Assembly: GCF_027319265.1 (NCBI RefSeq)
Contig: NZ_DAHVNP010000031.1
Location: 248,001 to 312,000, forward strand
Source: Ferrimicrobium sp.
Lineage (GTDB): Bacteria; Actinomycetota; Acidimicrobiia; Acidimicrobiales; Acidimicrobiaceae
DNA: 64,000 nt
Reading direction: 5' to 3'
In this document: piece by piece, positions 50,289 through 55,089 of the stretch
Layout of the letters: every line of letters starts with the position of its first letter
How positions within the stretch are numbered: position 1 is the first letter of the stretch
Notes under the pieces: generated by a model
Seen by the model: only the letters and a program-made list of their open reading frames with translations
Told to the model about the DNA's origin: nothing
Database searches by the model: none
Translations under genes and position numbers: made by a program

Positions 50289-50813
50289 CTAGACACAGTC
50301 ACGGCAGAACATCTTCTCCTGGTCAGCCAGTTGTATCATGCTCTTAACAAGGAAACATGACTGACAGACAAACTCATCTGGCTGACGAGGCTTGACCCGG
50401 ACAACCGTGTCTCCAGACTCATCGACCTCCTCTTCGTCGTCGACCTCGGTAACTACGAAGCGCTCACGAAGAATATCATCGAGGGCTGACTCAACCTCAT
50501 CGTCGTCAACCTCCTCCTCATCATCAGACTCCTCAGCGTCCTCTGACTCCTCGGCTTCGTCATCAGCGTCTGGTGTCAACTCTTCGATTTCGACACCATC
50601 CATCTCGTCAAGCACAATCTCATCGTCGACTTCTTCGTCTGCATCGAGATCGTCATCGAGATCGAGCTCTTCGTCGATCTCTTCATCAACGATCAGTTCG
50701 TCATCGAGATCGAGCTCGTCCTCTTCATCAACGTCGAGTTCATCAACATCGATCTCGTCCTCTACCGGTGCTGTCGCCGCCTTTGGATCTATCTTCTTCT
50801 TACGATCGGCCAT
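50289..50813 (-). CDS. DUF4193 protein with a very acidic N-terminal region
   Basis: 174 residues. The C terminus matches DUF4193 (VCQSCFLVKSMIQLADQEKM plus CRDC, a CxxC...CxxC zinc site). The preceding residues (about 19-135) are almost entirely Asp and Glu, a stretch longer than the whole usual protein. The ATG at 50813 has GAGG five bases upstream. The antisense frame is an artefact that reads as poly-Ser. Function unknown; the acidic tract may be a nucleic-acid mimic or a charge buffer. Confidence 0.8.
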   Translation of the reverse strand: MADRKKKIDPKAATAPVEDEIDVDELDVDEEDELDLDDELIVDEEIDEELDLDDDLDADEEVDDEIVLDEMDGVEIEELTPDADDEAEESEDAEESDDEEEVDDDEVESALDDILRERFVVTEVDDEEEVDESGDTVVRVKPRQPDEFVCQSCFLVKSMIQLADQEKMFCRDCV

Positions 50814-50897
50814 CACTACCTCTTTCAGTTTGCAAGCACGTGTTTCAATTCGGCAATGCTAACCACTTTCACACCCATTTAGTTCCGCAAAACTCGC

Positions 50898-52496
50898 CTA
50901 ATTTCCAAGTTTTTCAATCAGGCGCTCCTCCTGTACCCGCCGACCAAGCAAATAGCTCTCGGTATCGACAAAACGCATCGCAGCAGCGAGGTGGTGATGA
51001 CCGATACGGTCCAATGATCGATACATCTCTTGTGCGATGGTCCGATAGACTGGATGTCCCTGCGGTTGCGATCGCAACTCTACCAGATGCAACAATTCTC
51101 GTGCATTCAGCTTGACAGCAAAGCGAACGCGAGCAGCCAGGGGGAGCACCATCCGAGCGGTCGGAGCAACCACTGTATCATGAAGATCCTCAGCAAAGCG
51201 GAAAGCGGCATCAAAAACCGGATCAATCGCTTCGAGTAACCCCTCATCGGCAAGCGCCGGATCGACTTGGTAACCAGCGATGGCAACAGGATCCTGTTCG
51301 AGCAGGGTCAGGAGACGGTGACGTGCGAGGTCACGGTAGGACCCATAATCAGTCTCGATCTCGAAGGTATAGGAACTCATCTCCCACGCCCGCGAAGGCT
51401 TATGACGACGATTTTCTCGATCTCCACTGTAGGCCCGAAAGATCTCGACACGTTGGGCATCAGAGAGCTCGCGTGCCCGGCGTTCGCACTCTGCAAAGGA
51501 GACCCCGCTCTGTTCGTACAACATCCAAGGAATCAGCTCCGCATCACTCTGGGGCTCGTAGCCTAACAGTCGCACACTAGGCGCCCAGTAAGGTGTGGGC
51601 GACCGTTGCACGGGTTCCTCGGGCCATGATGGATCGACAAGCGCTTCGATATTCGCCTGTCTCTGAGCGAGATAGGTGGTCCATCGACCACCTCGGTCGG
51701 GTCGATCCATCCGACCGACCAGTAGCCCGAGTACCTTGGTGACTTCACGAGCGATCGCATCTGCCGTATACAGACTCTCATACGAGCCGATGGATCGGAG
51801 ACGAACGACGAGATACTCCAGCGCCTGCGCGCTACCGACGATTCCGACGTTGGTCATCGTCGCCATCGGGAGGCACCCGCGTGCGCTATCGAGCGCAGCT
51901 GCTCGAGCGGCACGTACCCTCGCCATATCATCAGTAGGTACGTCTTGGGTGAACCGAGCCTTCATAGCATCGAAGACCGTCGCGTAGAGATCGAACTCTT
52001 GAGCGATGATCTGGTGGTAATGGCGCCGAAGCTCTCCCGCAAACTCCTCAGGGATAACGGCTCGCAGGCTCCCATCTTCTCGCAGAGAGGACAGGTTGAC
52101 ATAGCGCGTCGATTGTTCAAGGAATGACAGCAATCGATGACGTTCTAGCGTCCGTGTCAGCACCGTTGACACCTGTTCAACTGCGACGTGTGTCGTGGCC
52201 AGCTGAGCAACCGAATCATCACCGTAGTCACCGATAACTCGACCCATCAGCGCCCTGGTGCGCGATCCTGTGCCGAGACTCACGTGCGTGGAGACGGGAT
52301 CGAGATCGTGCGCAAACTCATCAAGAAAGATACGCCGCAGCGACTTGCTCGAACGAGAGTAGCGTGCGAAAAGGGCAGCAGCGAGCTCCTGGGGAACATT
52401 CTGTAGACAAAACACCGGTTCGTCGACGTTGGTGAAGTATCTCTCCAGGGTAGCCCGCTCCGCCGGCGCGAAGACTTCGGGAAGGTAATTAGCCAC
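50898..52496 (-). CDS. Double-length ThyX-like protein
   Basis: 532 residues made of two ThyX-like halves. ThyX is the flavin-dependent thymidylate synthase (dUMP to dTMP), usually about 220-250 residues. Half one has the ThyX motif RHRx7S intact (R119-H120-R121 to S129, HRLLSFLEQSTRYVNLS). Half two has RHR at 392-394 in DLARHRLLTLLEQ but Asp402 instead of Ser; it keeps the C-terminal NARELLHLVELRSQPQGHPV. GTG start. Whether it is an active synthase or a repurposed protein cannot be told. Confidence 0.75.
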   Translation of the reverse strand: MANYLPEVFAPAERATLERYFTNVDEPVFCLQNVPQELAAALFARYSRSSKSLRRIFLDEFAHDLDPVSTHVSLGTGSRTRALMGRVIGDYGDDSVAQLATTHVAVEQVSTVLTRTLERHRLLSFLEQSTRYVNLSSLREDGSLRAVIPEEFAGELRRHYHQIIAQEFDLYATVFDAMKARFTQDVPTDDMARVRAARAAALDSARGCLPMATMTNVGIVGSAQALEYLVVRLRSIGSYESLYTADAIAREVTKVLGLLVGRMDRPDRGGRWTTYLAQRQANIEALVDPSWPEEPVQRSPTPYWAPSVRLLGYEPQSDAELIPWMLYEQSGVSFAECERRARELSDAQRVEIFRAYSGDRENRRHKPSRAWEMSSYTFEIETDYGSYRDLARHRLLTLLEQDPVAIAGYQVDPALADEGLLEAIDPVFDAAFRFAEDLHDTVVAPTARMVLPLAARVRFAVKLNARELLHLVELRSQPQGHPVYRTIAQEMYRSLDRIGHHHLAAAMRFVDTESYLLGRRVQEERLIEKLGN

Positions 52497-52569: not shown

Positions 52570-55089
52570 CTACAGTCCGACTACGTCAAAACCACTCTCA
52601 TCGGTGAACTGAGCATCCTCATTGGCGAGCACTGCCACCTCCGAGGAGATAGCCACGATTCCGCGCACGACGGCGGCTTCGGTACGCCTAGCCAACTGGC
52701 CGAGAGGCTGGTCAACATAGACCGCCGCAATCTGACGGGCAAGATCTGCGATCTGCTTGGTGTTACGCACGAAGTCTCCAGGAGGGATCGGTGATAACCG
52801 CAAAATTCGCTCCAACGGTTTCCCATCGGCCCAATCGTAGATCAATTCGCTAAAGCCAACATCTGGAACGCGAGTCAGTGGCAGTTCACGTACCCCCTCG
52901 AGACGCTGCAGCTCACTCGACAGACGGCGAACTTCTCGAAAGCGCTCGATGAGCTCGGGGTGACTAGAACGCAGACCGGTTCCCGTGAAACTCGGTCGTG
53001 GTTCGAAGGTCATCCACGAAAGCACCGAGGCAAAACCTGGTTCGTTGAGCGCTTCGAGCTCCAATGTATCTAGTGCCAGCGCCAACAGGATGTCAGACTC
53101 AGAGTAGAGGCTTGACAAAATGGTGCCAGTGGGAGTGAGCGACCAGCCTCGCGAAAAACCAAACGCCTCCATGACAGAGAGCACACGGTCAAAATAGCCG
53201 GATAAAGCAGCCCGTCGTTGGTTGATGCGCTCCTCGAGTCGCGCTGCCCGACCCTCTTCTCGTAGCTCATGCTCTCGACCAACACCGGTCTCAAGAAACT
53301 CCCTCGATGGTTCCTGATGGTGACGTGCCTTCAGACTCCGCTTGAGTTCCTTGGCAGCCTCTCGCCGCATGAGCTCCTTGCGCCCACGATCCACAGGCGG
53401 CAGCGCGATCCGCTTTTGCAGACGTGCTTCCCGCAGATGCGTTGCGCCGAGGGTGTAGCCGCGACCAGAAGGCGACACCGTCTGAATCTTCATACGACCA
53501 TGAGCGCGATTCGACACCGAAAGGACCACCAGCGAGGCGCGATGCCGAGTCCCTTCAGCCGAAGGGACCGAGATCACCGACCCAGGCACTACCCGTACCT
53601 CATCAACCTCTCCAATCGGCCGGAAGGGGCCATGTCGACGGCGCAATCCACGAAGCTCAGCCTCTAGCCTCACCACCTCAGCATCCTGTGAGAATTGAGC
53701 GAAGGAGAGATTGAGGAGCTCCCTCGCCGCCTCGGGTGTGTAGCGTTTGACAAGATTCGCAGCCATATTGTAGGTAGGTCGAAACGACGATGTGATGGGA
53801 TAGAACTCCCCCTCGACCACCCGAGCGACATCCGCAAAGGTGACTCCGCCACCCCAAGCGACATAGCTGCTACCTCGGTGATCAATCCCACGCCGTCCTG
53901 CCCGTCCTGAGAACTGCGTGTACTCTCCTGGCGAGAGTATCTTATGGGTCTCGCCATTGAACTTGACCATCTTCTCTATCACGACAGAGCGCGCAGGCAT
54001 ATTGATCCCCAGCGACAGGGTCTCGGTCGCAAAAACCACCTTGATCAATAGTCGTTCAAAACACTCCTCCACGATCTCTCGAAACGGAGGGACCAATCCC
54101 GCATGGTGAGGTGCAAAGCCGGCCTCCAAACCCGCCATGAACTCCACATATCCCAATACCTTGAGATCGCGCGGATCAAGTTTCGCCAAACGTCGATCGA
54201 CCACTTCACGAATCATCTCCCGCTCGATCTGGGTCGTCAAGCGAAGGCCACTCGCGACCGTCTCATCGGCGGCAGCCTGACAGCCAGCTCGCGAGAAGAT
54301 GAAGATGATCGCCGGCAATTCTCGGTTCGCTGCGAGGAATTCAATGAGTTCAGGACGGGCCACGCCCCGAGCCTTGGGACCAAACGAGCGTCGAGTGCTC
54401 GAAAGCCATGGAGGGTCAAGTTCGGAACCCTTCGGGTTTGGTCGTCCCCCCTGGAGCACCGGAAGTGCCGTGACTTGACGAGAACGACGATCCGCATAGA
54501 GGTATCGATGCTCAAGGGGTACGGGCCGACCACGTGCTTCGACGACCGTCATCTGGCCCCGAACCTCTCGCATCCAAGCAGCAAAATCATGGACGTTAGA
54601 GACCGTCGCCGAGAGGCATACCAGATTCACATTTCGCGGCAGGTGAATAATCACCTCCTCCCAAACAGCACCTCGGTAAGGATTCTGGAGATAGTGCACC
54701 TCATCAAGCACCACGAGTCCGAGATCGTCGAGCGACTCAAGGCTGGCGTAGATCATGTTACGCAATACCTCGGTCGTCATGACCACCACGCGCGCACCAG
54801 GGTTAATCGAGTTATCACCGGTGAGGAGACCCACATTCTCGGCTCCGAAGGCACGCACAAATTCAGCATATTTCTGGTTTGAGAGCGCCTTCAGCGGAGT
54901 CGTGTAGAAGGTGCGAAGTCCAAGGTCAAGAGCGCGACACGCGCCAAACACCCCTACCAGCGTCTTGCCTGACCCCGTAGGTGCGGCGACAAGCACCGAT
55001 TCATCCCGAAGGATCGCTACAATAGCCTCCTCCTGGAACGGATCAAGCTCGATATCAACCCGATCCTCAAAATGAGAGACAAATGTCAC
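52570..55089 (-). CDS. helY: Ski2-like ATP-dependent helicase (HelY)
   Basis: 839 residues. Walker A AAPTGSGKTLVGVF, DEVH box VVLDEVHYL, SATVSNV, QFSGRAGRRGIDHRG, then a C-terminal helical region with two long arms. RNA helicase of the Ski2/Mtr4 type. Gene order helY-tatC-tatA with proteasome genes nearby equals mycobacteria. Confidence 0.93.
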   Translation of the reverse strand: MTFVSHFEDRVDIELDPFQEEAIVAILRDESVLVAAPTGSGKTLVGVFGACRALDLGLRTFYTTPLKALSNQKYAEFVRAFGAENVGLLTGDNSINPGARVVVMTTEVLRNMIYASLESLDDLGLVVLDEVHYLQNPYRGAVWEEVIIHLPRNVNLVCLSATVSNVHDFAAWMREVRGQMTVVEARGRPVPLEHRYLYADRRSRQVTALPVLQGGRPNPKGSELDPPWLSSTRRSFGPKARGVARPELIEFLAANRELPAIIFIFSRAGCQAAADETVASGLRLTTQIEREMIREVVDRRLAKLDPRDLKVLGYVEFMAGLEAGFAPHHAGLVPPFREIVEECFERLLIKVVFATETLSLGINMPARSVVIEKMVKFNGETHKILSPGEYTQFSGRAGRRGIDHRGSSYVAWGGGVTFADVARVVEGEFYPITSSFRPTYNMAANLVKRYTPEAARELLNLSFAQFSQDAEVVRLEAELRGLRRRHGPFRPIGEVDEVRVVPGSVISVPSAEGTRHRASLVVLSVSNRAHGRMKIQTVSPSGRGYTLGATHLREARLQKRIALPPVDRGRKELMRREAAKELKRSLKARHHQEPSREFLETGVGREHELREEGRAARLEERINQRRAALSGYFDRVLSVMEAFGFSRGWSLTPTGTILSSLYSESDILLALALDTLELEALNEPGFASVLSWMTFEPRPSFTGTGLRSSHPELIERFREVRRLSSELQRLEGVRELPLTRVPDVGFSELIYDWADGKPLERILRLSPIPPGDFVRNTKQIADLARQIAAVYVDQPLGQLARRTEAAVVRGIVAISSEVAVLANEDAQFTDESGFDVVGL

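Follow-up and report, generated by a model that had tools for sequence, protein, structure and literature searches.

A single reading frame in the window (the whole 64,000-nucleotide stretch of Ferrimicrobium sp. DNA that we analysed) encodes a protein resembling two copies of the flavin-dependent thymidylate synthase ThyX in one chain. This essential enzyme is a target for antibacterial drugs, and its four active sites are shared between subunits. The locus raises the question of how a chain with two ThyX-like halves would build such sites, and whether it makes the thymidylate of its host. The first-pass annotation, made from the sequence, had described one half with an intact RHRx7S motif and one with Ser replaced by Asp, and had suggested either an asymmetric enzyme or a protein with a new role. 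The gene, whose reading frame contains no internal stops, and its two halves are laid out as follows.

50898..52496, reverse strand: two-domain ThyX (flavin-dependent thymidylate synthase), 532 amino acids (aa), GTG start, PF02511 match
51621..52496, reverse strand: N-terminal half (N-half), aa 1-292, ThyX fold, carries the dUMP/lid loop (Pfam match, predicted fold)
50901..51608, reverse strand: C-terminal half (C-half), aa 297-532, ThyX fold, RHR and the N-A-R...H...E-L-R helix (Pfam match, predicted fold)

The Pfam profile Thy1 (PF02511) matched the 532-aa protein in two stretches (whole-protein E value of 7.4e-41 and 140.5 bits, with a cut-off of 24.8), and in the profile search of the genome each half exceeded the PF02511 cut-off singly (75.4 bits, E value of 3.2e-21; 65.8 bits, E value of 2.9e-18). 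An AlphaFold2 model of the whole chain, built from a 30-sequence alignment that included the window's protein, had a mean pLDDT of 86.3 and a pTM of 0.86. Residues 303 to 515 of the C-half model matched Thermotoga maritima ThyX (1o26_C) with a Z score of 16.9 at 2.6 Å over 195 residues. The N-half modelled alone (pLDDT of 82.0; pTM of 0.81) matched Mycobacterium tuberculosis ThyX (3gwc_A) with a Z score of 13.6 at 3.0 Å over 197 residues; ranks 1 to 47 of its matches were ThyX-family chains throughout, two of them being PolB, and the following row had a Z score of 4.5. Both halves are thus predicted to adopt the ThyX fold. The first-pass annotation had made the duplication depend on a ThyX fold in the second half, and the match of the C-half to 1o26_C lets the duplication stand. 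The 532-aa protein is a real ThyX duplication in one chain; a chance motif or a wrong reading frame is ruled out by the PF02511 matches and the folds of both halves.

The fused protein scored 82.5 bits against TIGR02170, the thyX equivalog profile with a curated cut-off of 87.9, and we have therefore filed it as a separate two-domain subfamily apart from canonical thyX. It also departs from the canonical single unit, in which RHRx7S and the further catalytic residues lie together in about 230 aa, as the N-x-R...H helix residues of the window's protein are found in the C-half only. Two genes flank it on the same strand.

50289-50816, reverse strand: directly downstream, a strongly acidic 175-aa protein with a CxxC...CxxC stretch at its end and a weak likeness to DUF4193 (22.2 bits, with a cut-off of 25)
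52570-55089, reverse strand: directly upstream, 73 bases off, an 839-aa DEAD/DSHCT helicase, presumably Ski2/Mtr4-like going by its domains

To place the two halves in a family, we gathered 146 fused proteins, 142 of them distinct (four duplicates, L063 to L066, were dropped before counting). Thirty came from a search of relatives (the best 30 of 59 genomes with a match), 80 from a scan of genome_contigs (four being copies of the relatives' loci), and 20 from other families of the phylum or class. Plasmid and phage records gave seven (out of 10 records; H7, H9, and H10 were left out), further phages gave four (out of 16 records, the rest being L163 itself and near-copies by name and score), and viral contigs gave five. 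The N-half motif was among the search patterns of the genome_contigs scan and of one viral scan, so the 78 distinct proteins contributed by these scans are biased for it; the other 64 distinct proteins, including the window's own, form a fair sample. The reading frame was chosen with the help of the motif in 23 of these 64 (20 phylum loci and 3 viral contigs), and no phylum locus among the 20 dropped out through lacking the N-half motif. The intein-bearing L173 was left out of counts and trees, and L046, a single-domain row in a wrong frame, was left out of trees. L129, whose N-half loop reads EKSTRY, is included in the final counts. For residue mapping, 41 representative fused proteins were aligned with 18 single-domain ThyX rows, and we followed residues that are near-invariant in the 18. 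Placed against T. maritima (Tm) and M. tuberculosis (Mtb) ThyX, the motifs of the window's protein are the following (all on the reverse strand).

52350..52364: RYSRS, N-half aa 45-49, by alignment at what we take to be the folate-loop place of ordinary ThyX
52200..52220: DDSVAQL, N-half aa 93-99, S95 aligning with Tm T55/Mtb Ser71 and D93 with Tm His53
52134..52142: R119-H120-R121, intact RHR of the N-half, within the family only in the window's genus (7/142)
52101..52118: EQSTRY, N-half aa 127-132, dUMP/lid loop, equivalent of Tm E86-S88-R90-Y91
51867..51887: SARGCLP, N-half aa 204-210, R206 aligning with Tm R147 (136/136)
51390..51413: NRRHKPSR, C-half aa 362-369, nearly invariant in the main family
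51315..51323: R392-H393-R394, C-half RHR, FAD binding by homology, RHR or RHNR in 142/142
51282..51299: EQDPVA, C-half aa 400-405, degenerate place of the S-x-R-Y loop, S-x-R-Y in 0/142 C-halves
51072..51107: NARELLHLVELR, C-half aa 464-475, R466 aligning with Tm R165/Mtb R190 and R475 with Tm R174/Mtb R199

The two motifs singled out at the start are as first described: the N-half has intact RHRx7S, with R119 to R121 followed by Ser129 in RHRLLSFLEQS, and the C-half has Asp402 in place of this Ser, in RHRLLTLLEQD. The window's protein also lacks the FAD-helix N-x-R and His in its N-half and the whole S-x-R-Y loop in its C-half. Judged from the alignments, the Ser-to-Asp change belongs to a wider division of residues between the halves. 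In the N-half RYSRS, S47 and R48 are found in 136 of 136 aligned fused proteins and are invariant across 28 N-halves, divergent ones among them.

In the fair sample, all 64 N-halves carry E-x-S-x-R-Y/F (F once, in a Microcoleus phage) and 7 carry an exact RHR; the C-halves carry RHR (58) or RHNR (6) in 64/64 and S-x-R-Y in 0/64. The 78 motif-biased proteins agree, with an exact RHR in none of the N-halves and all 78 C-halves and with no S-x-R-Y in any C-half. Taken together, the 142 proteins always have E-x-S-x-R-Y/F in the N-half and RHR (RHNR in six) in the C-half, where S-x-R-Y never occurs. An intact N-half RHR is limited to 7 of the 142, every one from the window's genus (7 distinct sequences), and the other 135 N-halves are without it; outside the genus, the same place reads WGR, RGR, RSR, RPR, SN-, or similar. 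By this comparison the N-half RHR of the window's protein is an exception within the fused family.

Mapping of single residues extended the division. Tm S88 and R90 are each present in 41/41 N-halves and 0/41 C-halves, Tm Y91 in 40/41 and 0/41, the Mtb Ser71 equivalent in 41/41 and 0/41, and Tm R147 in 41/41 and 4/41. Tm H79 occurs in 2/41 N-halves and 41/41 C-halves, and Tm R78 in 11/41 and 41/41. Tm R174 is found in all 41 C-halves and in 25/41 N-halves, the latter figure hanging on a gapped alignment. The FAD-helix His is present in 33/41 C-halves and 0/41 N-halves, the equivalent of Mtb Arg190 (the Arg of N-x-R) in 30/41 and 9/41, and Tm His53 is represented by Asp in 30/41 N-halves. The aligned losses in the two halves are complementary, and these opposite residue sets bear out the suggestion of an asymmetric enzyme. 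The idea of one intact and one altered half does not survive the comparison: neither half of the window's protein holds a complete residue set, and RHR is absent from most N-halves of the family (135/142).

The window's protein by itself, with its intact N-half RHRx7S and with Asp402 in the C-half, could be read as a complete catalytic ThyX unit followed by a decayed regulatory or structural copy. We consider this highly improbable. The half that would be catalytic lacks RHR in 135 of 142 proteins and the half that would be decayed has RHR or RHNR in 142 of 142, the N-x-R Arg (9/41 N-halves versus 30/41 C-halves) and the FAD-helix His (0/41 versus 33/41) likewise favor the C-half, and decay would not leave C-half residues invariant. 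The retention of R119-H120-R121 in all 7 distinct sequences of the genus could also mean that all four sites are active there. Such an N-half RHR would, however, need an S-x-R-Y from a C-half, and this motif is found in 0/142 C-halves, the genus included, which makes four active sites extremely unlikely.

The known architecture of ThyX suggests how the divided residues may come together. According to passages of PMC6514825, the active site lies between three subunits: subunit A gives RHR (Mtb residues 95 to 97) and Arg199, subunit B gives Ser71 and Arg190, and subunit C gives Ser105, Arg107, and the lid Tyr108. Passages of PMC8316439 describe Tm S88, R90, and Y91 as important in catalysis and R174 as participating in dUMP activation. 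In the fused family the subunit-C residues occur only in N-halves and the subunit-A set in C-halves, so a complete site would need an N-half beside a C-half and not beside its own kind. We therefore propose, as the likely explanation, a two-domain ThyX whose active site is split between its halves, which converts dUMP to dTMP and is probably the sole thymidylate synthase of the organism. An ancient ThyX gene would have been duplicated and fused, after which the halves would have shed opposite parts of the active site. The C-half would supply RHR and the dUMP-activating Arg (R392-H393-R394 and R475), and the N-half the lid loop (E127, S129, R131, and Y132). Two fused chains would form a pseudotetramer in which two composite sites are complete and the other two are dead, compared with four sites in ordinary ThyX, and each chain would bind one FAD and one dUMP; the count of two assumes that the tetramer keeps the 2-fold symmetries of ordinary ThyX. 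We infer the spatial pairing of the halves, the number of sites, and catalysis itself from sequences and models.

Several observations count against the composite site. The N-half RHR kept in the window's genus is not required by it, the subunit-B set (Ser71/Arg190) is, by alignment, not cleanly divided between the halves, most N-halves (30/41) have Asp for Tm His53, and the protein falls below the TIGR02170 cut-off. We considered assigning this third contribution (Tm H53, T55, and R165; Mtb Ser71 and Arg190) to one half, going by the Bacillota plasmid forms, which have GHSS and N-G-R in the N-half. One Bacillota plasmid form also keeps a His-Asp-Thr-Pro stretch in its C-half, and the single-half assignment was dropped.

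The main-family C-halves carry an N-R-R-H-x-P-x-R stretch at or near the His53/Thr55 place, with R363 and R364 conserved in 132/136, P367 in 134/136, R369 in 133/136, and H365 in 125/136. It may be structural, may serve a live site, or may mark a new use of the dead site pair. That near-invariant R363, R364, H365, P367, and R369 have no catalytic role in the composite-site model speaks for a two-site enzyme whose dead pair has been re-used, e.g., for binding NADPH or a regulatory nucleotide, and passages of PMC6514825 report that NADP+ can occupy the FAD place in M. tuberculosis ThyX. Against this, the forms from Bacillus, Paenibacillus, and phage Tunturi have lost R363 and R364 (some of them retain P367 and R369), and the near-invariant residues could just as well have a structural part or act in the live sites. 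As an explanation of the fused protein, re-use is very doubtful. The fuller proposal, in which a homotetramer has become an enzyme obligately built from two parts and the main family keeps a dead pair for NADPH or a regulatory nucleotide beside two catalytic sites made from opposite halves, is unlikely as well. If true, fused ThyX would have a reductant or allosteric site apart from its catalytic ones, which to our knowledge is not known for ordinary ThyX.

A composite ThyX that supplies the thymidylate of the organism should be seen in the genomes that carry it. The assembly that holds the window is 2.88 Mb and 95.9% complete. The first-pass annotation had called for a search for another thymidylate synthase, and our profile search of this assembly gave no second PF02511 match and no ThyA match; nor did it give a match to thymidine kinase (Tdk, PF00265) or to FolA-type dihydrofolate reductase. 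The absence of FolA fits the use of ThyX, because ThyX yields tetrahydrofolate (THF) and not dihydrofolate (DHF) according to passages of PMC11940539. Among the families searched, the assembly holds no other thymidylate route. A thyA or tdk gene missed in a 95.9% complete assembly is possible though unlikely, given the relatives: the relatives search, which covered 60 genomes with the own one among them, found the fused gene, whole or in part, in 59 and ThyA in 0. The one miss (G035) is an 82% complete genome, and G020, G029, and G036 show the fused gene in pieces or cut short.

A sample of 197 genomes from the phylum gave a similar picture. Fifty-eight were of the fused type, 55 of them lacking a ThyA match; in the other three the match was in two pieces (G244), partial (G181), or weak (G211). 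The loci of 19 fused-type genomes (20 loci) were read as sequence and most others were typed by score alone, single-type best matches having E values of 5.0e-32 or better and fused-type ones 7.9e-28 or worse; only one half was seen in 5 of the 58. ThyX was missing from 47 genomes, 43 of which had a ThyA match, many of them weak. Such weak PF00303 matches (E values of about 1e-8 to 1e-12) stand alone in many ThyX-less genomes of the phylum and probably represent a divergent ThyA type. Within the window's class, genome G224 has ThyA and lacks any match to ThyX. Two fused thyX genes (L147 and L148) are present in genome G098. Across the own genome, the 60 relatives' genomes, and the phylum sample, the fused gene stands in for ThyA.

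Elsewhere, the fused gene lies downstream of dcd on a Euzebya plasmid replicon, with two small genes between, and adjoins a dCMP deaminase gene in the Tunturiibacter jumbo phage Tunturi_5. Both dcd and dCMP deaminase feed the dUMP pool. From these gene distributions, the fused protein is very probably a thymidylate synthase of the organism and probably its only one. There is no need to invoke the new role once suggested for it, since no other thymidylate synthase candidate turned up in the genome and the relatives search gave no ThyA in any of its 60 genomes.

Alternatively, the fused protein could use flavin to methylate uracil in some other compound, acting on UMP as PolB does or making a modified base. 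The two best Foldseek matches of the whole model are chains of PolB, the UMP/dUMP methylase of Streptomyces cacaoi (PDB accession no. 4p5a and 4p5b), which has the ThyX fold, and some members of the fused family are phage genes. With VIA-align 2, however, the top rows for either half are ordinary ThyX and PolB ranks lower, and PolB chains are single-domain proteins of 239 residues, unlike the fused protein. The genomic setting of the fused gene suggests no biosynthetic side role as with PolB. The presence of the fused gene in 59/60 genomes, ThyA being in none, and the lack of a Tdk or FolA match in the own genome, which would otherwise leave no dTMP route found, further make a role other than housekeeping thymidylate synthesis most unlikely.

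We next considered the history of the split. N-halves cluster together, as do C-halves, in a 56-row IQ-TREE phylogeny (ultrafast bootstrap values of 100 and 81, respectively) and in a 100-row FastTree phylogeny (0.79 and 0.98). The simplest account of these trees is one old duplication, with the split already in place before the bacterial, plasmid, and phage lineages parted. Independent fusions in phages and bacteria are disfavored by both trees, which favor one duplication. Support for C-half monophyly is moderate, and long branches may group through shared losses.

The fused form also occurs in records titled Acidobacteria, Deltaproteobacteria, Dehalococcoidia, and Dormiibacterota, in a Parabacteroides, in Bacillota plasmid records, and in jumbo phages and cyanophages. 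The Tunturi phage protein as a query found no related locus in viral contigs. Two annotated features of a Vibrio phage suggested separate genes for the N-half and the C-half, and this was rejected, one 461-aa gene holding both halves. Proteins of 461 to 503 aa in phages Yong MS32, Ma-LMM01, My-WqHQDG, and BONAISHI (L176 to L179) are fused ThyX, two of the four being annotated as hypothetical proteins. L173 (IMGVR_UViG_3300033802_000519) is a Bacillota-type fused ThyX with an intein-like insert that has a LAGLIDADG domain; the insert interrupts the N-half at its conserved GHS/SVAEH stretch, which homology marks as a helix of the active site. Several members of the family are publicly annotated as FAD-dependent thymidylate synthases. 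The Pfam profile recognizes the N-half alone in the four phage forms L176 to L179, and fused enzymes can therefore be missed or misnamed.

The two-domain architecture is already known. Valas and Bourne (2009) reported a duplicated, uncharacterized ThyX in Chloroflexi (PMC3224940), the sole paper that we found on ThyX domain duplication. It too concerns a domain duplication used without ThyA, its passages give no residues or mechanism, and the Chloroflexi protein is probably of the same family as ours, the two being compared by that paper's description. The fusion and duplication passages of PMC9931769, PMC5954106, and PMC10733785 contain nothing on a duplicated ThyX. For the split active site and the prediction of two sites, we found no description in the literature searched, with subscription journals mostly outside it. 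Thermus thermophilus Thy1 (PDB accession no. 6j61), one of the structural matches, is also longer than the minimal chain and has an extra C-terminal domain, but its 270-residue chain is too short for a second ThyX fold. Ordinary ThyX (PF02511; T. maritima TM0449 and M. tuberculosis ThyX) has the fold predicted for both fused halves and likewise replaces ThyA, and the key catalytic residues tested are all present once the two halves of the fused protein are summed. The fused form differs from it in its double length, in the division of residues between nonequivalent halves, in its score below the TIGR02170 cut-off, and in the prediction of two sites where ordinary ThyX has four identical ones between three subunits.

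The sharing of sites makes the part of each subunit of ThyX hard to separate, and the natural split would allow single-site changes confined to one side of the interface. Fused ThyX may offer a clean way to learn which residues work together and whether the enzyme can function with only half of its usual sites. It would also exemplify how the assembly of an enzyme becomes fixed when a duplication is followed by complementary losses. For the organisms themselves, fused ThyX seems to supply thymidylate for nearly all sampled relatives (59/60) and for other groups.
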